Assembly (NCBI GenBank): GCA_031289425.1
Contig: JAITPM010000002.1
Coordinates: 1 to 59,645 of the forward strand
DNA length: 59,645 nt
Direction of reading: 5' to 3'
From: Fusobacteriaceae bacterium
Lineage (GTDB): Bacteria; Fusobacteriota; Fusobacteriia; Fusobacteriales; Fusobacteriaceae
The notes below the pieces were generated by a model that saw only the letters and a program-made list of their open reading frames with translations, was not told the DNA's origin and did no database searches. Shown here piece by piece: positions 16,543 to 57,122 of the stretch (the stretch's first letter is position 1; each line of letters begins with the position of its first letter). The position numbers and the translations under genes were made by a program.

Positions 16543-17835
16543 ATGATCAAATTAAACGAAGTAGAGCTTGAAGAAATTAAAAATAATCCGGATGCTATTG
16601 CGCAATTATTGGTTAGAAAAGCAATTGAAGAAGAAATAATTTTGAAACCTTTTTCTGATGAACAACAAAGAACACTAGAAAATATAAAGAAAAATGTTGA
16701 AATAGAATTTTTTCTAAATCTTAACGCAGAAGATAAAGTTACGGTTACTGATATCGAAATATTAGAGGTATATAGAAACAATATCGCTGCTTTAAAAGAT
16801 AAGAAAGTCGAAGAAATTTTTCCTCAATTGAAACAATCTGTTTTTAATCAAAAATTAGGTGTAGAGAAGGCAAATATTGTCAATGAACTCGTTAAAAAAT
16901 ATGATTTAAATACTATTCTAAAAGAACATGTTCCAGAATTACAAAAGATAGAAAGCCCTACAGATGCAAAAGAACAAAATCTATTAGAAAATAGCAACAA
17001 TTTGGAAGAAATTGAGAAAACCCAATCTGTAACAACTGATCAAGCTGCGTTTAATCAAAGTGTAGAAACTGAAGAAAGTAAAGAACCTGAGATAATTAAA
17101 GTAGCTGACATAATAAAAGTATCAGAAGTGGTTGAAGAACCTGAAATAGCTAACTCATCTGAAAAAATTATTGAAGTTACTGAAATAGCAAAAGAAGAAA
17201 TAAAAATTTCTCCAGAATTATTAACTCCAAAACCAGTAGAAGAACCAGTAGTTGAACCGATAGTAGAAAGTCTAGTTTTTGAAAAAGTTGAAGAAGTTGA
17301 AGAAGTTGAAAAAATTGAAAAAATTGAAGAAGAAAAAATCAGCATAGAACCAATCTTTCAAAGTGTTCCTGTTGAAAAAACAACAATTGAGGAACTTTTT
17401 TCAGATACTCCAGTGAAAAATGAATCAGATGAATTATTTGATAACCCTTTCATTACTAGTACACCTACTATTGAAAAACCTGTTATAGAAACAACAACTA
17501 CATCAAATCCTTTTGTGAATGAACCAATTTTTGTAGAATCAGAAGCAGAAAATGGACCATTTATGAATGATCAATTTTCTCCAAATGAAAAAATAGAAGA
17601 TATTTTCAAAAGTTCAGATAACAATATCCCAACAGATAATCAGAAGGAAGATATGAATTTTTTTGAAGCTCCAAAGGTTGTTTTTGATGACAGCATTCTA
17701 AAAACTACAATTAAAAATGATAATTCTACTGAGGACATCAAGATAAGAAAAAAAAGTGATATATTCGAAGATTCCGAACCAGATTCTCAAAATATGCCTT
17801 TTAGTTTTGGTAATTTTAATTTTAAATTTGATTAA
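16543..17835 (+). CDS. Uncharacterised protein: SurA/trigger-factor-like N-terminal helical domain plus long acidic low-complexity tail
   Basis: N-terminal ~130 aa alignable with 39979..40443; Glu/Val-rich tail; C-term NMPFSFGNFNFKFD. Confidence 0.75.
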   Translation: MIKLNEVELEEIKNNPDAIAQLLVRKAIEEEIILKPFSDEQQRTLENIKKNVEIEFFLNLNAEDKVTVTDIEILEVYRNNIAALKDKKVEEIFPQLKQSVFNQKLGVEKANIVNELVKKYDLNTILKEHVPELQKIESPTDAKEQNLLENSNNLEEIEKTQSVTTDQAAFNQSVETEESKEPEIIKVADIIKVSEVVEEPEIANSSEKIIEVTEIAKEEIKISPELLTPKPVEEPVVEPIVESLVFEKVEEVEEVEKIEKIEEEKISIEPIFQSVPVEKTTIEELFSDTPVKNESDELFDNPFITSTPTIEKPVIETTTTSNPFVNEPIFVESEAENGPFMNDQFSPNEKIEDIFKSSDNNIPTDNQKEDMNFFEAPKVVFDDSILKTTIKNDNSTEDIKIRKKSDIFEDSEPDSQNMPFSFGNFNFKFD

Positions 17836-26473: not shown

Positions 26474-26512
26474 TGTCGCTATTTAGCTACACGCTGTTTC
26501 CAAATAGAGACA
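26474..26512. promoter_or_regulatory. Inverted repeat TGTCGCTATTTAG-N13-CCAAATAGAGACA, candidate upstream activator sequence
   Basis: 13-nt arms with 2 mismatches, ~120-155 bp upstream of the sigma54 promoter. Confidence 0.45.
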
Positions 26513-26560: not shown

Positions 26561-26629
26561 ATGAAAAAAGTGTAGGTATTTAGGAACAAATAGAATTAAA
26601 ATAATAATATTTTTTCTAAAACAGTGTAT

Positions 26630-26645
26630 TGGCATGATATTTGCT
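26630..26645 (+). promoter_or_regulatory. Sigma54 (-24/-12) promoter
   Basis: TGGCAT-GATAT-TTGCT, matches TGGCAC-N5-TTGC(A/T). Confidence 0.8.
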
Positions 26646-27073
26646 TATTATATAATATGTAAAAATATTATGATTTTATTATTTTAAATTATTTAAATAT
26701 TACAAAATTTTAAGAACTATGTAATAGCTAATTATTTGGAATTAAACAATTTCATATTACATAGTAAAAAATGGGAGGGAACCGGCTATGAAAATTAAAT
26801 TTAAAGAGAAGTAGCTATGATAATTATTAAGGAATAAAACAAACAGATTGTTTTAACAAAATCATTATTTAAAATTGAGAATGATGTCGAGACAATAATA
26901 TATGAAACTGCGAATATATTTGAATAAGATATTTAATAATTGTTATCAATATGGAGATATAAACAATCACGTGATATCCTTATAATTCGGTAGAAATACC
27001 TGTTGTCTCTTATTTGCGACAAAAAATTATACATGTACCAACAACTAAACCAAATTTTTTAGGAGGTAGTTTT

Positions 27074-28429
27074 ATGCAAGGAAATGAAATATTAAGTTTG
27101 ATAGGAATATTAATTGCGTTAGCGATACTTGTTGTCTTTATAATGAAAGGGGTCAATATATTTATAACAGCTTTCATAAGCTCTGCAATAGTAGCTATTA
27201 CGAGCTGGGGATTTACAGCAGGTGGTGCTGGCGCTGTAGAAATGACTTTATATAATGGTTTAAAAACTTATTTCATAAGAGGATTTGTAGGATTTTTCAG
27301 TGCAAATTATTTGATTTTCCTAACTGGTACTTTAATGGGAAAAATGATGGAAATAACTAATGGTGCGAAAGCTATTGCCAAACTAATCGTTAGAGTGTTT
27401 GGAAAAAGATACGCTCTCATATCTGTTCCTCTTGCTTGTGCTATATTGGCATATGGTGGAGTTACAGTATTCGTAGTCAGCTTTGCAGTATTCCCAATAG
27501 CATTAGAAGTATTTAAGGAAGCCGACCTTCCGAGAAGATTTATACCGGGAGCTTTGACTTTTGGATGTTCTACATTTGCTATGGTAGCACCGGGTGCTCC
27601 ACAAATACATAACTTCACACCATCTAGAGTATTGACTGACTTGGCTGGAAGACCTGTTACTTTGATGGCCGGAACATGGGTTGGATTTATTTCTTGCGGT
27701 GCAATATTTGTAATTGGTTCAATCATAATGTTTAAATATATTGCTGCTGCTAAAGCTAAAGGCGAACATTTTGTTGCTAAAGATATAGACACATTTGCAG
27801 ATGATAAAGTGCTTCCAAATGGAATAGTAGCAATGATCCCACTTGCAGTAACAATTTTATTAATTAATCTTAAAATAGTAGAAGCTGAATCTGGAGTATT
27901 AATAGGAACTATACTTATATTTTTACTATTAAACAAATATCAAGATAATAAAAAATCTTTAAGTCATATAGGAGAAGGATGTAAACAAGCTATAGGATCA
28001 ATATGTAATACCTGTGCGGTTGTTGGATTTGGAACTCTTGTATCAATGTCGGCTGCATTCCCAGTAGTTAGAAATGCTATGACTAGCATACCAGGACCTC
28101 CACTTGTAGGTGTAGCAGTAGGAACAACTGTAATAGCTGGTATATGCGGATCTGCATCAGGTGCATTAGGAATAGCTGCTCCTCTATTAGGTCCAGTATA
28201 TTTGAAACTTGGTGTAACTGCTGAAGCAATATCTAGAACAATGTCTATCTCATCAGCAGCACTTGATTCATTACCACATAATGGATATATAGTAACAGTA
28301 ACAAATGGTATCTGTAATGAAACACATAAAGATGCTTATGGTCTAGTGTTTTGGTTGACTGTTGTGACACCGGCTGTAGGATCAGTAATCGCAGTTATTT
28401 TATTTACACTTTTCCCAAATTGGCCATAA
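27074..28429 (+). CDS. GntP-family carboxylate permease
   Basis: Multi-TM; AYGGVTVFVVSFAVFPIALEVF and SGALGIAAPLLGP; AGGAGG before ATG at 27074. Confidence 0.82.
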   Translation: MQGNEILSLIGILIALAILVVFIMKGVNIFITAFISSAIVAITSWGFTAGGAGAVEMTLYNGLKTYFIRGFVGFFSANYLIFLTGTLMGKMMEITNGAKAIAKLIVRVFGKRYALISVPLACAILAYGGVTVFVVSFAVFPIALEVFKEADLPRRFIPGALTFGCSTFAMVAPGAPQIHNFTPSRVLTDLAGRPVTLMAGTWVGFISCGAIFVIGSIIMFKYIAAAKAKGEHFVAKDIDTFADDKVLPNGIVAMIPLAVTILLINLKIVEAESGVLIGTILIFLLLNKYQDNKKSLSHIGEGCKQAIGSICNTCAVVGFGTLVSMSAAFPVVRNAMTSIPGPPLVGVAVGTTVIAGICGSASGALGIAAPLLGPVYLKLGVTAEAISRTMSISSAALDSLPHNGYIVTVTNGICNETHKDAYGLVFWLTVVTPAVGSVIAVILFTLFPNWP

Positions 28430-32880: not shown

Positions 32881-34275
32881 ATGAAGATGCCCCAAGAGAT
32901 ATACAAATATATATTTGATCAAGTATTGCAAATGACAGAGGATGGATTTATAGTAGTAGATACAGATGGAACTGTTATAGACATAAATGATCAATATTGC
33001 GATTTTTTTAACGAAAAACGGGAAAACATAGTAGGTAAAAGTATTAAAAATATTATTCCAAACTCTAAGATGATTGACATAGTCAAGAACAGGTTTAGAG
33101 AAGAGGGCGCCGTACATACATATATTACCGGGACTACGAGAGAAAAGAAAGTATTAGTCAGTAGATCCTACGTAGAAAATGATAACGGTGAAATAGTAGC
33201 CGGAGTAGCACAGATAAAATTTCGATTACAAACATTAGATATCGCTAAAAAATTAATCACAGAATATGAACAATTGGAATATTATAAAGAAGAATATCAA
33301 AGAATCGGAATGGGAAAGATTTCATTTGCTAATATTATAGGTTCTAGTCCTGCTTTCTTAAAAAATAAAGAATCAGGAATAAAAGCTGCTAAAACTAGCT
33401 TTTCGGTTTTATTGACCGGAGAAACCGGAACTGGAAAAGAGATTTTTGCAAAAGCCATACATAATGATAGCCCAAGAGCTAATAAGCCCATGGTAAGTAT
33501 TGATTGTGCTGCCATACCGGAAGAATTATTAGAATCAGAACTTTTCGGATACGAAGAAGGTGCTTTTACCGGAGCAAAAAAAGGCGGAAAAAAAGGGAAA
33601 TTTTTTATAGCCAATGGCGGAACGATATTTTTGGATGAAATTGGAGATATGCCTCTAAAGATGCAAGCTAAACTTTTGAGAGTTTTACAAGAAAGAGAAA
33701 TAGAACCAATAGGTAGTCTTGAGACTATCCCAATTAATGTGAGAATAATAGCTGCCACAAGAAAAAATCTCAATCAAATGATAAAAAATGGTGAATTTAG
33801 AGAAGATTTATTTTATAGATTAAATGTCATCAATATTGAAATGGTGCCCTTGAGAGAACGTAAAGATGATATAATAGAAATGGCAAATTATTTTTTGGAA
33901 GAATTGAATAAAGAAATGAAAACAATCAAAATACTTTCCAAAAATGTTTTAAGATGCTTTAAAGAATATTCTTGGACTGGAAACATAAGAGAATTGGATA
34001 ATGTAATAAAAAGTGCTTATGCCAGTTCAGATGACCTGTATATAGATTTGGTAGACCTTCCATCTAGAATTACAAAAAGTGATATAATATCTGAAAAAAA
34101 TGATACCAAGAAACCTTTATATGAATTGGTAATGAATTATGAAAAAGATATTATAATATCTGCACTGGAAAGGAATAACTGGAATTGCAATGAAGCAGCT
34201 AAGGAAATGAAAATACATAGAAGCATAATATACAGAAAAATAAAAAAATATAAAATAGATTATAATGATCAATAA
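32881..34275 (+). CDS. PAS-AAA+-Fis sigma54-dependent activator 1
   Basis: PAS (DGFIVVDTDGTVIDIN), Walker A GETGTGKE, GAFTGA motif, C-term Fis HTH. Confidence 0.96.
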   Translation: MKMPQEIYKYIFDQVLQMTEDGFIVVDTDGTVIDINDQYCDFFNEKRENIVGKSIKNIIPNSKMIDIVKNRFREEGAVHTYITGTTREKKVLVSRSYVENDNGEIVAGVAQIKFRLQTLDIAKKLITEYEQLEYYKEEYQRIGMGKISFANIIGSSPAFLKNKESGIKAAKTSFSVLLTGETGTGKEIFAKAIHNDSPRANKPMVSIDCAAIPEELLESELFGYEEGAFTGAKKGGKKGKFFIANGGTIFLDEIGDMPLKMQAKLLRVLQEREIEPIGSLETIPINVRIIAATRKNLNQMIKNGEFREDLFYRLNVINIEMVPLRERKDDIIEMANYFLEELNKEMKTIKILSKNVLRCFKEYSWTGNIRELDNVIKSAYASSDDLYIDLVDLPSRITKSDIISEKNDTKKPLYELVMNYEKDIIISALERNNWNCNEAAKEMKIHRSIIYRKIKKYKIDYNDQ

Positions 34276-34453
34276 GAAATACAATATAAGAAATTATGAG
34301 AGTTATAATTTTTCATCATTTTTTATATTGTAAATGTTTATATAGAAATTTTAGAAAAGCATTTCTTGAATTTTTTATAAAATTAGAAATGATTTAATGG
34401 AAACTGTAGATACTATATCCCTAAAAAATAAAATTAGAAAAGTGGAGAATCAT

Positions 34454-35851
34454 ATGAAAAAAAATAGGAATATTTATCAACATATCTTTTATAAATTTTT
34501 GGAAATGACAGATGATGGTTTTATTGTAACGGATTCTGATGGCATTGTTACAGATGTCAATGAACCATATTGCAAATTTCTCAAATTAAAAAAGGAAAAT
34601 TGCCTGGGCAAAAATATTTTAAAGATCATTCCAAATTCTAAGCTTATTGATGTCATGAAAAACAGATACACAGAAGAAGGAGTTATCCACACATATACAG
34701 GAGGCAATGTCATTGAAATGAAAGCAATGGTCAATAGATCCTACGTCGAAGATAATGATGGAGAAATTATCGGCAGCATTGGACAGGCCAGATTTAAATT
34801 TCAGACATTGGATATTGCCAAGAGATTTATGGCTGAATATGAAGAATTGGAATTTTATAAAGAAGAATATCGAAAAACAGAAATAACAAGATTTTCATTT
34901 GATAGTATTATCGGCTCATGCTCCAATTTTGTAAAAATTAAAAATGATGGATTGAAAGCCGCCAAGACAAATTTTTCTGTATTATTGACAGGAGAAACCG
35001 GAACCGGGAAAGAAATTTTTGCTAAAGTAATACATTATGCTAGTCCCAGAGCACAAAAACCTATGATATGTATTGATTGCGCATCAATTCCGGAAGAGTT
35101 GATGGAATCAGAACTTTTTGGCTATGAAGAAGGGGCTTTCACAGGAGCAAAAAAGGGAGGGAAAAAAGGAAAACTTTTTATTGCTAATGGAGGAACAATA
35201 TTTTTTGATGAAATCGGTGATATGCCACTTAAAATGCAGTCAAAATTGTTGCGAGTATTACAAGAAAGAAAAATAGAACCTATAGGGAGCCTAAATGTAA
35301 TCCCAATTGATGTACGGATTATTGCGGCTACAAGGAAAAATCTCCCACAGATGATAAAAACGGGTGAGTTTCGTGAAGACCTCTTTTATCGACTCAATGT
35401 AATCAATATCGAAATGATACCTCTAAGAGAAAGAAAAGATGATATCATGGAAATGGCAAATCAATTTCTAGAAGACCTGAATCAAGAAATGAAAGGAAGA
35501 AAAATATTTGCCAAGGATATATATAACTGTCTTCGAAAGTATCATTGGCCTGGAAATATACGTGAACTAGAGAATGTAATAAAAAGTGCCTATGCCAGTT
35601 CTAACAGCTCATACATTGACTTGGTTGATTTGCCATTGAGAATTGTTAATGACAATAATATCAATGAAGCAGACCTAGAGATACCTTTGCTGGAAGTTGT
35701 AAAGAATTACGAAAAGGAATTGCTAACAGCAGCATTGAAGAAAAGCAATTGGAATTGTGATGAAGCAGCAAAAAAATTGAAACTCTCTAGAAGTGCCATC
35801 TATAAAAAAATTAAAAAATATGGGTTATCGTATCAAGTAAATAAAATTTGA
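34454..35851 (+). CDS. PAS-AAA+-Fis sigma54-dependent activator 2
   Basis: Paralogue of the preceding gene; GETGTGKE, GAFTGAKKGGKKGK; start at MKKNRN after GGAGA. Confidence 0.95.
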   Translation: MKKNRNIYQHIFYKFLEMTDDGFIVTDSDGIVTDVNEPYCKFLKLKKENCLGKNILKIIPNSKLIDVMKNRYTEEGVIHTYTGGNVIEMKAMVNRSYVEDNDGEIIGSIGQARFKFQTLDIAKRFMAEYEELEFYKEEYRKTEITRFSFDSIIGSCSNFVKIKNDGLKAAKTNFSVLLTGETGTGKEIFAKVIHYASPRAQKPMICIDCASIPEELMESELFGYEEGAFTGAKKGGKKGKLFIANGGTIFFDEIGDMPLKMQSKLLRVLQERKIEPIGSLNVIPIDVRIIAATRKNLPQMIKTGEFREDLFYRLNVINIEMIPLRERKDDIMEMANQFLEDLNQEMKGRKIFAKDIYNCLRKYHWPGNIRELENVIKSAYASSNSSYIDLVDLPLRIVNDNNINEADLEIPLLEVVKNYEKELLTAALKKSNWNCDEAAKKLKLSRSAIYKKIKKYGLSYQVNKI

Positions 35852-35919
35852 GATACTGAATTAAAAAATCTAATAGTCCATAGAATAGTATAAATTATTT
35901 TGTCTATTCTTTTGGATTG

Positions 35920-35976
35920 GTTCCATAAAAATCATTCTTTAATATATTGAATAATTCTTTATGGAACTTTTTTATT
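35920..35976 (+). terminator. Rho-independent terminator after activator 2
   Basis: GTTCCATAAA...TTTATGGAAC then TTTTTTATT. Confidence 0.75.
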
Positions 35977-36007
35977 GGTTAAATTTAGTTATATAATTTT
36001 TATTAAT

Positions 36008-36051
36008 AAAATTCTACAAATGTAGACATAAGTCTACATTTGTAGAATTTT
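36008..36051. promoter_or_regulatory. 20-bp perfect inverted repeat with two CTACA-N2-TGTAG sites; candidate upstream activator sequence
   Basis: AAAATTCTACAAATGTAGAC-ATAA-GTCTACATTTGTAGAATTTT; third site CTCCAAATGTAG at 36112-36123. Confidence 0.65.
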
Positions 36052-36243
36052 GTATACATATGTATATAAAGGGAATCTGGTTTATTCTTTTTATAGTAAA
36101 TTAGTACATATCTCCAAATGTAGATTTAAAAACAATAAAAAAATTTCAATATAATATGAAATATTTTTTTGTATGGATGCCAAAATACTAATATAGTGCC
36201 ATTTGCATTTACTGTTGTCAAAAATTTTGCAATGTAATTTGAT

Positions 36244-36259
36244 TGGCAAGAATTTTGCT
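36244..36259 (+). promoter_or_regulatory. Sigma54 (-24/-12) promoter
   Basis: TGGCAA-GAATT-TTGCT. Confidence 0.8.
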
Positions 36260-36336
36260 TTATTTTATATATAACAAATATAAATTGGTATCACAAATAG
36301 ATTTTATAAAAAATCAAAATTTAGGAGGTGTGTATA

Positions 36337-37098
36337 TTGAATAGATACGAAGGAAAAGTAGTTCTTATTACAGGTGCCACAGGAGGATTGGGCTCGGCTA
36401 TTGCAAGAACACTGGCAGAAGAAGGGGCATCTATTGCGATTAATTATATCAATGTTGGTGACTTAGAAACAATGGCAAAGGAGTTAGAAAAAGAAATGAC
36501 TGTTAAATTTGGTGGGAAGCATAAAGCTTATGCTGCAGACGTGACAAAGGAAGAAGAGGTCAGTTCCATGATTGAAAATATCGTAAAGGACTTTGGGAGA
36601 TTGGATGTTTTAGTTAACAATGCAGGAATTTCCATTAACTATACATCTTGGAAATATCCAGCTGAAGAATGGCAAAAAGTGATAGCTATCAATTTGAATG
36701 GTGCATTTTATTGCACGAAACATGCGCTTATTCCTATGCGAGAGCAACAATACGGAAGGATAATCAGTATTTCTTCTGTAGTTGGAATTACCGGTGCACG
36801 TGGAACAGTCGCATATGGAGCGACAAAAGCTGCTTTAATCGGAATGACCAAAACAATAGCCAGAGAGGTAGCTCAAAAAGGTATTACTGCAAATTGTTTG
36901 GCTCCGGGGTACATCAATGCTGGTATCATGAATAATGTTCCTGATAAATTTAGAGATGAAGACGTGATACCGTCTATTCCAATGGGACATTTGGGAGATA
37001 CGGATGATATAGCAAAAGCCATTGCCTTTTTAGGGTCAGATGATGCAAAATTTATTACGGGTCAGGTATTATGTGTGGACGGTGGTTTTGCAATGTAA
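36337..37098 (+). CDS. SDR-family oxidoreductase (FabG/3-hydroxybutyrate dehydrogenase-like)
   Basis: VVLITGATGGLGSAIAR, NNAG, YGATKAAL; TTG start preceded by AGGAGG. Confidence 0.92.
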   Translation: MNRYEGKVVLITGATGGLGSAIARTLAEEGASIAINYINVGDLETMAKELEKEMTVKFGGKHKAYAADVTKEEEVSSMIENIVKDFGRLDVLVNNAGISINYTSWKYPAEEWQKVIAINLNGAFYCTKHALIPMREQQYGRIISISSVVGITGARGTVAYGATKAALIGMTKTIAREVAQKGITANCLAPGYINAGIMNNVPDKFRDEDVIPSIPMGHLGDTDDIAKAIAFLGSDDAKFITGQVLCVDGGFAM

Positions 37099-37167: not shown

Positions 37168-38472
37168 ATGAATTTAGTTGTTTTATCAGGAATTGGATTA
37201 TTGATAGCATTGATAGTTTTAAGTGTGCTGTCATTTAAAAGAGTAACACCTGTTATTAGTGGTCCTTTAGCAGCGATAACGTTATGTATTTTTAGTAAAA
37301 TCCCTATTTATGACAGTGTTACAAAGGCCTATGTTCCTGGAATAGCTGCATTTTTCACATCATATTTTTTGATTTTTCTTTTGAGCGGTATCATGGGAAA
37401 AATATATGAGAAAACAGCAGCAGCCAAATCTATCGGTGAAACATTGGCATTGTTTTTCGGACCTAAAAAAGCTATGTTGGCCGTTGTCTTATCTACAGCG
37501 GTATTGATTTACGGAGGTATAACATCTTTTGTTGTTATTTTTGCAATATTTCCTATTGCTTTAGTCTTGTTCGAAAAAGCTGATACGCCTGTCAGACTTA
37601 TTCCGGGGATCGCTACATTGGGATTGTGGAGTTTCGCTATGACGGGGCCTGCTTCTACACAAATCCAAAATATCATGCCAATGCAATATCTAGGTACAGG
37701 TTCCCTTGCAGGGCTTATTCCGGGAGGTATAGGAGCATTTTTAATGTTTGCACTTGGTACATCGTACATGATGTGGGAAGAAAAACGTGCGAAAGCTCGT
37801 GGAGAACATTTTATATTTCCAAGTCATGTATCAAAGATAGAAGACTCAGCTCCAAGGCCAAAATTTGTTATTGCGTTAATTCCAATTATATTCGTAATCA
37901 TAGCTTTCAATGTTTTTAAAATGAATATTGTATATGCATTATTAATCACAGACATTTTGAGTGTTATTCTTTTCTGGAAATATTTTGCAGATGGAAATCC
38001 AATATTGGCTATTAATGAAGGAGCCATGGGTTCTATTCCTGTTATTATTAATACTGCTGCAATAGTTGGATTTGGTGCTATATCAAAACTTAGTCCATTC
38101 TATACTTGGGCAATTGATACTATTCTATCAACAAAAATGAATCCTTATGTGTTGGCTTTTGTATCTACAAATGCCTTTGCAGGTTTGATGGGCTCTTCTT
38201 CAGGAAGTTTGGGCTTAACATTCGGAGCTTTGGGAGATACATTTTTGCAATATGGTCAAGCAGGGTACAATCTTGGATATATACATAGAATGGCTGCTGT
38301 AGGAGCAGCAGGTTTGGATACATTACCTTATTGTGGGGCTATTATTTCGGTTTTAAATGTATGCGGTGTTTCTCACAAAGATGGTTATTTCCCAATTTTT
38401 ATTAATTGTACACTTATTCCAATTCTAGTAGGAACTCTTGTAATGTTGCCGATATGTTTCTTTTTGGGATAA
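37168..38472 (+). CDS. GntP-family permease (second copy in cluster)
   Basis: Multi-TM, same topology and motifs (IYGGITSFVVIFAIFPIALVLF; SSGSLGLTFGAL) as 27074..28429. Confidence 0.82.
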   Translation: MNLVVLSGIGLLIALIVLSVLSFKRVTPVISGPLAAITLCIFSKIPIYDSVTKAYVPGIAAFFTSYFLIFLLSGIMGKIYEKTAAAKSIGETLALFFGPKKAMLAVVLSTAVLIYGGITSFVVIFAIFPIALVLFEKADTPVRLIPGIATLGLWSFAMTGPASTQIQNIMPMQYLGTGSLAGLIPGGIGAFLMFALGTSYMMWEEKRAKARGEHFIFPSHVSKIEDSAPRPKFVIALIPIIFVIIAFNVFKMNIVYALLITDILSVILFWKYFADGNPILAINEGAMGSIPVIINTAAIVGFGAISKLSPFYTWAIDTILSTKMNPYVLAFVSTNAFAGLMGSSSGSLGLTFGALGDTFLQYGQAGYNLGYIHRMAAVGAAGLDTLPYCGAIISVLNVCGVSHKDGYFPIFINCTLIPILVGTLVMLPICFFLG

Positions 38473-38538: not shown

Positions 38539-39747
38539 TTGGTGAAAGAAATTTTGATGAAAGAAGTAGTGATTGTCAGTGCCGTGAGAACACCATTTGG
38601 TACATTTGGAGGAAGTCTCAAAGATTTCAAAGCTGTGGAGCTTGGTGGGATTGCAATAAAAGCTGCCCTAGAGCAGGCAGGCATCAAAGGAGAGCAAGTT
38701 GATGAGGTAATAATGGGTATGGTTGTTCCGGCAGGGGCAGGACAGATACCCGGTCGCCAGGCCTCTGTGAAAGGTGGTATCCCTCATGATGTTCCGGTGG
38801 TGACTATAAATAAAGTATGTGGTTCTGCATTAAAAGCTATCACTATGGCTGCACAGGCGATAAAGGCAGGAGATGCAGATATTATAGTAGCAGGTGGAAT
38901 GGAAAGTATGAGTAATATTCCTTATATTTCATCTAAAATACGTTGGGGAGCACGTATGGGAGATATTGAAATGAAAGACGCCATGATACTAGACGGCCTA
39001 TGGTGCCCTGATAATGATGTGCATATGGCTGTTATCGGAGGCCAAGTGGCCGCAGAATATGGGGTAAGTCGTGAAGAACAAGATAAATGGTCATATCGCA
39101 GTCAGATGTTGTGGAAATCGGGAGAAGAATCAGGTAAATTTGATGATGAACGTATCCCTGTAGAAATCAAAACAAAAAAAGGATTGTCTATTTTTTCAAA
39201 GGATGAATTTCCTCGTCCCGAGACTACATTAGAAAGTCTTGCAAAATTAAAACCGGTTTTTGACCCCAATGGTTCAGTCACAGCGGGTAATGCTCCCGGG
39301 GTCAATGATGGTGCAAGTGCAGTGGTTGTAATGTCACGTGAGAAAGCAGAAGAACTAAAACTACCTATATTAGCAGTTATCAAAGGTTATGCGCAAGCTT
39401 CCAGAGAATCACGTTATATCGCAACAGTTCCCGGCCTTGCGATACAAAAGTTGATGGGACGCTATAATAAAAAAATAGATGACTTTGACTTAATAGAAAT
39501 TAATGAGGCCTTTGCAGCCGTACCATTGGTTAGTGGAAAACTTTTGGGACTCGACCCGGATGCAATGGATGCCAAAGTAAATGTAAATGGTGGTGCAGTC
39601 GCAGTAGGGCATCCAATAGGTGCAACAGGAGCACGAATCTTAATGACATTGATATATGAGCTACGTCGTTCAGGAAAAAAGAATGGGATAGCAGCTATAT
39701 GCAGCGGAATGGCACAAGGTGATGCTGTTTGGGTAGAAGTAGAATAA
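38539..39747 (+). CDS. Acetyl-CoA C-acetyltransferase (thiolase)
   Basis: VIVSAVRTPFGTFGGSL, NKVCGSALKA, GGMESMSN, NGGAVAVGHPIGATGARI, CSGMAQGDA. Confidence 0.95.
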   Translation: MVKEILMKEVVIVSAVRTPFGTFGGSLKDFKAVELGGIAIKAALEQAGIKGEQVDEVIMGMVVPAGAGQIPGRQASVKGGIPHDVPVVTINKVCGSALKAITMAAQAIKAGDADIIVAGGMESMSNIPYISSKIRWGARMGDIEMKDAMILDGLWCPDNDVHMAVIGGQVAAEYGVSREEQDKWSYRSQMLWKSGEESGKFDDERIPVEIKTKKGLSIFSKDEFPRPETTLESLAKLKPVFDPNGSVTAGNAPGVNDGASAVVVMSREKAEELKLPILAVIKGYAQASRESRYIATVPGLAIQKLMGRYNKKIDDFDLIEINEAFAAVPLVSGKLLGLDPDAMDAKVNVNGGAVAVGHPIGATGARILMTLIYELRRSGKKNGIAAICSGMAQGDAVWVEVE

Positions 39748-39978: not shown

Positions 39979-40443
39979 GTGATAATAGAATTAAATCCCC
40001 AAGAATTAGAACAAGCAAAAGGAGATCCTAACATAATGGCTTCAATGTTGGTTAGAAAAGCTATTGTAGAGGAAATGTCAAAGAGAGAATTTACCAATGA
40101 AGAAAAATTTCAATTAGAAATTGCTAAAAAGAATTTAGAAATAGAATTTTTCTTAAATATACTCGCTCAAAAAGACATTAAAATTGAGGATCATGAAATT
40201 TTAAAGATTTATCAAGAAAATGCAGAATCACTAAAAGACAAAAATATGGTAGAAATATTCCCACAATTAAGACAAGCTTTATTCAATCAAAAATTAGGAG
40301 AAGCTAAAGTAAAAGTAATAAATAGTTTTATTGAACAATACAAATTAAACGACGTATTGAAAGAATATGCTCCGGCTTCTCAACAACCTGCTGCTGCAAC
40401 TACTGAGAATATTGCTCCAATAATTAATACTGAAGTAAAATAA
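39979..40443 (+). CDS. Uncharacterised SurA/trigger-factor-like helical protein, paralogue of 16543..17835 N-terminus
   Basis: LVRKAIVEEM..., KKNLEIEFFLNILAQ, DKNMVEIFPQLRQALFNQKLGEAK shared with 16543..17835. Confidence 0.75.
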   Translation: MIIELNPQELEQAKGDPNIMASMLVRKAIVEEMSKREFTNEEKFQLEIAKKNLEIEFFLNILAQKDIKIEDHEILKIYQENAESLKDKNMVEIFPQLRQALFNQKLGEAKVKVINSFIEQYKLNDVLKEYAPASQQPAAATTENIAPIINTEVK

Positions 40444-47630: not shown

Positions 47631-47663
47631 TAAAAATTAGATTACGTATATAAAAAATATATA

Positions 47664-47702
47664 TAAAAAAGAAAATGTTTTCAAAAACATTTTCTTTTTT
47701 AT
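47664..47702. terminator. Bidirectional rho-independent terminator
   Basis: AAAAAAGAAAATGTTTTCAAAAACATTTTCTTTTTT. Confidence 0.8.
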
Positions 47703-47739
47703 ATACTATATAAATATAACTATTTTTTATAATATTGCT

Positions 47740-54447: not shown

Positions 54448-55506
54448 TTATATTAATTTTTTATGTATATTTTTTTTATATTTTAAAATAATTATAAAAA
54501 TAATAAACAATCCTATTATCAAAAAATTTGAAAATTTATCTTTAGTGTTTTCATAATAGATATCAGATGTTCCCATTTTGGGCATTGGATACGGGTCATA
54601 ACTTAAATTAAAATATATGCATATATTTTTTATATTTAGTAAGTACAAAACCGGTATGTTGTCTGATAAAAATTTACCAACTAATCCATCATCAACATCT
54701 GTATTTTTATCCAATAAAATATGTGAATTATCTATTTCAAAATATTTACCACCTGTTGCTAATAGATTTCCACCTATATTTATAAAGGCTTTAATGTTTC
54801 CCTTGGATTTATAAAAATCATATCTCTCATTCAAACTTTCATTAAAATCTTCTTCATAAAAAAATTTTATATTATATTTTTTATTTTTTTCTATTATTTT
54901 TAATTTTACATCTTTTTCAAATTCTTTTCCTATATCGCCTACTCCACCCAAAGAATATCCTATACTTTTATTTTTTATTATATTCTTGGAATAGAGTGCG
55001 TTTTCCATATCGAGATATGTAAATTCTACTAAATTACCTCCAAACATAGATGCACCAACAGAGTTAACTATCACCCCTTTCAATCCCAGAGTATCCAATG
55101 CTGATATCAATGCAAAATTTAATGCCGGAAAAGAACTAGACAGATTAGCAGCGACAATATCGCCTTTCTTCAATTTTAATTCTTTGAATATTTTTACAAA
55201 TATTGCAGCAAAATCTGGATTTGTAGTTGTCCTTTTAGCAGGTAAATCTCCTAAAGTAGTTGTGATATCGCTCCATTCGTCTCCTACGATACCGGTATTA
55301 TTTATATCTATAGTTTTATCAATTGTTATTCCGGCATTTAACCTTTCTTCTTTTATAACCTCTATTATATTATGCATTTTTTTATAAGCCAAAATCATTT
55401 CCTCATAATATATATTTTCTTTTCTGGAAAATTTAGGTTTTATAATATATTGTATAAATATAAAAATAATTGCAAAAATTATAAAGTACAATTTATTTCT
55501 TTTCAT
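54448..55506 (-). CDS. Poly-gamma-glutamate system protein (PgsW-like)
   Basis: Terminal TM segments, position immediately after pgsC; GIVGDEWSDITTTLGDLPAKRTTTNPDFAAIFVK. Confidence 0.75.
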   Translation of the reverse strand: MKRNKLYFIIFAIIFIFIQYIIKPKFSRKENIYYEEMILAYKKMHNIIEVIKEERLNAGITIDKTIDINNTGIVGDEWSDITTTLGDLPAKRTTTNPDFAAIFVKIFKELKLKKGDIVAANLSSSFPALNFALISALDTLGLKGVIVNSVGASMFGGNLVEFTYLDMENALYSKNIIKNKSIGYSLGGVGDIGKEFEKDVKLKIIEKNKKYNIKFFYEEDFNESLNERYDFYKSKGNIKAFINIGGNLLATGGKYFEIDNSHILLDKNTDVDDGLVGKFLSDNIPVLYLLNIKNICIYFNLSYDPYPMPKMGTSDIYYENTKDKFSNFLIIGLFIIFIIILKYKKNIHKKLI

Positions 55507-55522
55507 AGATAATTACCCCAAC

Positions 55523-55963
55523 TTATATAAAGATTTCAACGATTGATTTTATAAAAATAGATAAAATGACAAGAGAAGATAGAGGGTAGATCAGGCCATT
55601 TTTATCAATATCATTTGCTAATATACCCGGAATGATGCTTCCGATAATCGTATCATTGAAAAAATAGATATCATACTCACTTATAAAAAAAATATTTAAA
55701 GATTTTAATATATATCTCAATACAAATCCCAGTAACATACAGAGTGCAAATTTTCTTTTACCGTATATAATAGCAAAATTTGAAATTAATTTAACAATAA
55801 AATAAATAAAAATACTCACTAAAATTGTGACTAATATTTTTTTTGGGTTATCCAAATAAATAGCAAAATAAGCCGGTACTATAACCCCACCGGGAGAAAT
55901 TCCGGTCAATTCTGAGAAAAATATGCTCAAAACAATACCTAATATAATAATATTATTATACAT
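55523..55963 (-). CDS. pgsC: Poly-gamma-glutamate biosynthesis protein PgsC/CapC
   Basis: Multi-TM; SELTGISPGGVIVPAYFAIYLDNP; overlaps pgsB end. Confidence 0.88.
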   Translation of the reverse strand: MYNNIIILGIVLSIFFSELTGISPGGVIVPAYFAIYLDNPKKILVTILVSIFIYFIVKLISNFAIIYGKRKFALCMLLGFVLRYILKSLNIFFISEYDIYFFNDTIIGSIIPGILANDIDKNGLIYPLSSLVILSIFIKSIVEIFI

Positions 55964-57122
55964 TAAAAATATCCCCATATTCTAAGAAATAATTTAAAAT
56001 CTTTTCACCATATCCATAAATATTGCCAACAGCAATAATATCTAAATCTTCATTGATATTATTGATTAAATCGTCCAAAGTGTTTTCATCTTTTATTGTC
56101 AAAACATTATTTTTATCTATATTATTATTGATTAATTGATTATAAAATAAATTCTTGATTTCGCCGGATATCAATATTTTAGAAAAAATATCTTTATGTT
56201 CCAATACAAAATTTATATATTGCTCACTGCGGTTAATCCTATCTTTTCTATTATTTATAAGGAGATATTTTTTATTATTCAATATTTTCTTTTCAGATAA
56301 TCGATTTATAATAATTTTGGTAGAATCCGGGTCATTAGCAGCCATGGCATTTATAAAAAATATATTACTATTAGCCTTATTTATAATTTTTATGACCTGT
56401 AAAGTTCCGGGGTCTCTTTTATAAGTCTTCATTCCATTAAATGCTATGTCGTTATCTACACCTAAATATTTGCAAATTTCTAAAGAGATAGCAACATTTT
56501 CATAAAAATCTATTTTTTCATATTTTTTTATATATTTTGGATTACATTCTACTAAACATATATTAGTATCTAATTTATCAGCTTTTTTTTTGAAAAAATC
56601 AAAATATTTATCAGATAAAGTAAACAATATCCCATTTCTGGGAATACTATTGGATAAAGATTCTGCTATACTGTCCAACTCATTTCCCATAACATCCAAA
56701 TGGTCATAACGAACATTTGTTATGACAGAAATATCTGATTTTAAAATTTTATGCTCACAAATATATTGTAATTTTGGATTAATAGCCATACACTCAATTA
56801 TCAAAATTTCTGCACCACTTCTAACAGCCCAATTAATTGTTTTAATTTGCTCTATTATATTAGCTTTTCCCTGTCTGTTTATTATCTTTTCTCCAAAGTC
56901 TGTATCTATAATTCTCGGAGATGTTCCTGTAACTTTAGTAAATACCTTATAACCACCGGCTCGCAATCCCGCATCAAGTAATCTGCAAACTGTAGATTTA
57001 CCTCTTATTCCATTTACATGAATAACATATTTTAATTTTTTTCTATTTTTAATCAATATTAATTTTTCAAATATTATATAAATCATATAAATAATAAATA
57101 ATATAAAAATTAATCTTTCCAT
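55956..57122 (-). CDS. pgsB: Poly-gamma-glutamate synthase PgsB/CapB
   Basis: Mur-ligase-like P-loop HVNGIRGKSTVCRLLDAGLR; ECMAINPKLQ; VITNVRYDHLDVMG. Confidence 0.93.
   Translation of the reverse strand: MERLIFILFIIYMIYIIFEKLILIKNRKKLKYVIHVNGIRGKSTVCRLLDAGLRAGGYKVFTKVTGTSPRIIDTDFGEKIINRQGKANIIEQIKTINWAVRSGAEILIIECMAINPKLQYICEHKILKSDISVITNVRYDHLDVMGNELDSIAESLSNSIPRNGILFTLSDKYFDFFKKKADKLDTNICLVECNPKYIKKYEKIDFYENVAISLEICKYLGVDNDIAFNGMKTYKRDPGTLQVIKIINKANSNIFFINAMAANDPDSTKIIINRLSEKKILNNKKYLLINNRKDRINRSEQYINFVLEHKDIFSKILISGEIKNLFYNQLINNNIDKNNVLTIKDENTLDDLINNINEDLDIIAVGNIYGYGEKILNYFLEYGDIFNV

Follow-up and report, generated by a model that had tools for sequence, protein, structure and literature searches.

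The perfect inverted repeat at positions 36008-36051 of the window (by which we mean the whole stretch of 59,645 nucleotides that was analysed) is far longer than chance would allow, and is highly likely to represent two 18-bp sites, S1 and S2, spaced by two helical turns, at which the PAS-type sigma54 activator or activators encoded upstream (EBP2, or EBP1 together with EBP2) would bind, with S3 as a third predicted site. The array very probably serves to activate a sigma54 promoter upstream of fermentation-type genes, and in this respect would be an ordinary kind of bacterial enhancer. The sites, their membership of a motif recovered from other genomes, the promoter and the domains of the activators are established by computation (Table 1).

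Table 1. Positions in the window of the site array, the promoters and the genes discussed in the text
Feature	Positions	Strand	Basis and remarks
Predicted activator sites in tandem for the upstream operon (26474-26491, 26495-26512)	26474-26512		Two best single matches in the window to the other-genome motif
Sigma54 promoter of the permease-CaiB-AcrC-EtfBA-EBP1-EBP2 gene run	26630-26645	+	TGGCA-N6-TTGC match
EBP1: PAS, sigma54-activating AAA+ with GAFTGA, Fis-type HTH	32881-34275	+	Domain matches, translation
EBP2: PAS, sigma54-activating AAA+ with GAFTGA, Fis-type HTH	34397-35851	+	Domain matches, translation
Hairpin followed by TTTTTT, more likely the EBP2 terminator	35919-35973	+	Folding
Predicted activator site S1, ATTCTACAAATGTAGACA	36011-36028		Other-genome motif, 7.5-8.2 bits, rank 34-37 of 59,628 positions; contains the first CTACA-N2-TGTAG
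Predicted activator site S2, AGTCTACATTTGTAGAAT	36031-36048		8.6-9.7 bits, rank 11-22; 20 bp after S1
Weak in-phase third site, TGTATACATATGTATATA	36051-36068		2.7-2.9 bits only; in-phase copy from the double-pattern search
Predicted activator site S3, TATCTCCAAATGTAGATT	36109-36126		8.4-9.1 bits, rank 16-27; 78 bp after S2
Sigma54 promoter TGGCAAGAATTTTGCT (-24/-12)	36244-36259	+	Correct -24/-12 spacing
Short-chain dehydrogenase gene	36338-37098	+	ORF listing has GTG 36328 as start
GntP-like permease gene	37168-38472	+	Weak Pfam GntP_permease match, E 3e-4, below cut-off
Acetyl-CoA C-acetyltransferase (thiolase) gene	38539-39747	+	NCBIfam PRK08235, over cut-off

The inverted repeat and its predicted site array

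S1 and S2 together make up the inverted repeat, whose 20-nt arms (36008-36027 and 36032-36051) are 100% complementary around a 4-nt loop, as the preliminary description had reported; no perfect arm exceeded 13 nt when the whole window was dinucleotide-shuffled 20 times. The two CTACA-N2-TGTAG sites described with the repeat start at 36014 and 36034, 20 bp apart. With at most one mismatch allowed, the window contains the pattern CTACANNTGTAG 6 times, where 1.03 would be expected, and none of 100 shuffles reached that count. A search with the double pattern revealed a further in-phase near-copy, ATACATATGTAT, another 20 bp on at 36054-36065, and the near-match at 36112, previously noted as a third near-match, falls within a stretch of 30 nt that repeats the first site directly, if imperfectly. 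When up to two mismatches are allowed, the double array has no second copy in its own genome or in 60 relatives, and its single occurrence in the genome led us to reject a mobile repeat. A match to CTACATTTGTAG on contig C105 falls inside hisG and was taken as chance. Just one more perfect repeat of at least this length is present in the window; it lies at 47660-47705, downstream of the rpoA region, and with its 22-nt arms, 2-nt loop and A/T-rich ends it is terminator-like in appearance.

The position of the 36008-36051 repeat 3' of the EBP2 stop codon, and its folding into a hairpin of 20-22 bp (-28.8 kcal/mol, z -10), would also suit an element that has no part in activation and serves only as intrinsic terminator for EBP2. 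However, the tail that follows the stem, GTATACATA, lacks a T run, a terminator scan of 35800-36400 found none, and the hairpin nearer to EBP2, with its stem at 35919-35967, is the better candidate for this function. A terminator would, moreover, leave unexplained the match of the repeat to the motif derived from other genomes (see below), and we regard this explanation as very improbable. An Rfam search gave nothing near the gathering score.

The ten central letters of the sites, TACANNTGTA, raise the further alternative that the repeat is the operator of a CopY/BlaI-type repressor: they recur in all three in-phase sites and are identical to the classical cop box (PMC7253601). Nevertheless, these ten bases are insufficient for binding (PMC7253601), and the same ten letters occur 99 times in the genome. 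The likeness to the CopR-CopY system (PMC7253601) lies in these letters, whereas the context differs in that it is one of sigma54, the neighbouring genes include none for copper or with a role in copper export, and the 97.8%-complete genome yields no protein of the family (Penicillinase_R, PF03965) in a search that was positive in 7 control genomes. Such an operator is thus exceedingly improbable.

A motif from other genomes and its blind match

Orthologues of EBP2 with 54-69% identity are found in seven other genomes, where their neighbours are permease, CoA-transferase, acyl-CoA dehydrogenase, and Etf or crotonase-type operons. In the relative G001, the contigs C52 (L163) and C26 (L164) appear to adjoin, in that C26 seems to carry the rest of a permease gene that is broken off where C52 ends; when joined they hold two acyl-CoA operons, each with an activator gene last, and are likely to represent a related form of the locus. 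We used the regions upstream of the sigma54 promoters at the EBP2-orthologue loci to search for a palindromic motif against a second-order background; this set comprised eight promoters, none from the own genome, which amount to about five independent loci. The search recovered the motif aGTcTCnAatTnGAgACt, with a likelihood of 42.2, whereas none of 15 shuffled sets exceeded 34.1, and most of the training promoters contain two sites of this type 19-21 bp apart. Exact TGT-k-ACA spacings counted over nine promoters, with the 36244 promoter left out, showed a sharp peak at k = 12 (6 versus 0.38 expected, reached by none of 200 shuffles).

In a blind scan of the window with this motif, the best single positions among 59,628 were 26474 and 26495, both upstream of the promoter at 26630. 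Scored as tandem pairs, the pair beginning at 26474 came first with 35.6 bits and 36011 with 36031 second with 17.9 bits, the next pair reaching 13.4 bits. The promoters at 26630 and 36244 likewise rank first and second among the 23 sigma54-consensus sites of the genome, and neither the tandem score nor the third-site score was reached in any of 500 shuffles of the upstream region. Taken alone, the single-site ranks of S1 and S2 (11-37) are modest, and the two do not constitute independent evidence because they are mirror copies of each other. The same motif confirms the third site, S3, around the near-match at 36112-36123. The proposal of a two-site enhancer for a sigma54 promoter is supported computationally, in that a motif learned elsewhere picks out the repeat as the second-best tandem, and is to be amended in that the sites number at least three rather than two. 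Relative to the family motif the array is diverged, with CTA/TAG in place of CTC/GAG and incomplete outer TGT/ACA letters. The statistics for the own genome come from pattern searches and fetched loci.

One could suppose that the similarity to the activator motif is a chance one and that the sites belong to an unrelated regulator, given that the sites are predicted from sequence and the match at 36011/36031 is weaker than that at 26474. Against this stand the presence of three sites, the 20-bp tandem spacing, a distance of 118-233 bp to the sigma54 promoter downstream and the adjacency of activator genes, and we consider the supposition improbable.

A less remote alternative, which nonetheless seems unlikely, retains the same activator and shifts the register. 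Half-sites follow one another in alternation at 10-bp steps, so that the DNA contains both registers, and the activator might instead recognize the TGT-N12-ACA dyads at 36021-36038 and 36041-36058, with the CTACA-N2-TGTAG sites as mere junctions. Two observations favor this: 1) both dyads are exact, and the exact tandem pattern recurs at only one other place in 61 family genomes, namely in a simple 20-bp tandem repeat, TGTAATGATAAAATTACATA, of the relative G009 (C11:18278-18335, L198). 2) At the other promoters the TGT-N12-ACA spacing is enriched and the ACA-N2-TGT spacing is not. The outer letters are ATT..ACA in S1 and AGT..AAT in S2; exact TGT/ACA, as seen in the sister promoters, is present only in the alternative register. 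The full motif, however, gives the dyad at 36021 only 3.5-4.3 bits, because its inner letters misfit CTC/GAG, as against 7.5-9.7 bits for the CTACA-N2-TGTAG register, and S3 exists only in the latter. The full motif therefore points to the CTACA-N2-TGTAG symmetry centres, those chosen in the preliminary description, as the better ones, and they would form the core of the 18-bp sites.

Promoters, probable target operons and the activator pair

The sigma54 promoter at 36244, previously noted as the target of the repeat, is indeed present. TGGCA-N6-TTGC has 23 matches in the genome of 2.45 Mb, this one included, and a reversed control pattern occurs there once per strand. S1 and S2 lie about 206-226 bp from the -24 element of the 36244 promoter, and the three-site array as a whole spans 118-233 bp upstream of the promoter, adjoining the activator genes in a gap of nearly 500 bp after EBP2. 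A sigma70-type promoter considered at 36126-36155 was rejected, such sites being rarer than chance expectation. The first gene that the 36244 promoter would serve encodes the dehydrogenase, which probably starts at TTG 36338, after AGGAGG. No orthologue of the dehydrogenase operon was found among the 80 relatives searched, and hence there is no direct cross-genome comparison for this promoter.

EBP1 and EBP2 are tandem genes directly upstream of the repeat. The genes before EBP1 encode a permease, a CaiB-type CoA transferase, an acyl-CoA dehydrogenase (an acryloyl-CoA reductase according to NCBIfam) and EtfBA, and have their own sigma54 promoter at 26630. The third-best motif match in the window, TGTCTCTTATTTGCGACA at 27004-27021, is downstream of this promoter, within the leader, some 445 nt long, that precedes the permease ATG at 27075, and could possibly be a downstream activator or repression site. 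A further TGT-N12-ACA dyad, TGTAGGTATTTAGGAACA, is seen at 26571-26588, about 50 bp upstream of the same promoter.

The kinship of the genome, with a family rich in sigma54 activators whose order also includes a family lacking them, and its gene content would suggest a lineage resembling the Fusobacteriaceae. The genome encodes one rpoN and about 11 full sigma54 activators, among which EBP2 is the likely binder of the sites. In an alignment of ten sequences its recognition helix, SRSAIYKK, has a serine where the nine relatives have a histidine (HRS-type). This change might accompany the change from CTC to CTA in the sites, although the correspondence is suggestive only; the closest relative of EBP2, from G001, keeps the histidine and has mixed sites. 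We tentatively propose, as a possibility open to considerable doubt, that the specificity of the two paralogues has split, such that EBP2 would read CTA/TAG at the dehydrogenase promoter and EBP1 would keep the ancestral CTC/GAG at the permease-AcrC operon. A search of the named genomes with EBP2 yielded distant activators only, and a truncated activator on contig C24 and its promoter have no exact TGT-N12-ACA dyads.

Elsewhere in the window, the translations of 54448-57122 resemble, by eye, poly-gamma-glutamate synthesis proteins (PgsB/CapB-like and PgsC/CapC-like), and the ORFs 16543-17835 and 39979-40443 look like paralogues within one small protein family, the former with a long, acidic, repeat-like tail.

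Affinities with known regulons and the proposed mechanism

In the Clostridiales, reconstruction of activator regulons defined fifteen activator groups with TGT-N10-12-ACA sites, including CrbR, XcgR and AhcR at butyrate-type operons; in most of the groups a promoter is preceded by several sites, usually 100-250 bp away (PMC6615313). The locus described here appears to be of this kind, and CTACA-N2-TGTAG would be the core of a predicted activator site of 18 bp that probably belongs to the TGT-N12-ACA class known from these bacteria; the motif that had gone unrecognized in the preliminary description appears to be a variant of an upstream activator site class on record (PMC6615313). The shared features include: 1) PAS / AAA+ / Fis-HTH activators encoded beside their targets, which are acyl-CoA, Etf and GntT-type operons (PMC6615313). 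2) Multiple inverted-repeat sites upstream of a TTGGCAT-N5-TTGCT promoter at distances of 100-250 bp (PMC6615313), a range that accommodates the distances of S1 and S2 from the -24 element. Unlike these regulons, the present locus has a CTA/TAG core in place of the CTC/GAG of the family, a tandem pair of activator paralogues with a target operon on either side, and a perfect palindrome made of two abutting sites. Upstream activator sequences of the NifA and FhlA type have been named as similar (PMC6615313); these too are TGT...ACA palindromes upstream of -24/-12 promoters, but here the spacer is 12 and the inner letters and target genes differ.

For the binding of the activator, the looping, the signal and the choice between EBP1 and EBP2 we draw on the general biology of such proteins. 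The PAS domain of EBP2 (or EBP1) would sense a signal, upon which activator dimers would load as neighbours at a spacing of two helical turns, on one face of the DNA, and assemble into an active ring. This ring would loop out about 200 bp to contact the sigma54 polymerase at 36244, where ATP hydrolysis together with the GAFTGA loop would open the polymerase complex and allow transcription of the dehydrogenase, permease and thiolase genes.

The outcome for a group of PAS-type sigma54 activators is a predicted binding motif and a predicted two-operon regulon, with support from a blind test across genomes. If the split in specificity is true, the locus would comprise two activators and two enhancers for two acyl-CoA operons, and the paralogue pair would offer a compact case for the joint change of an enhancer-binding protein and its sites.
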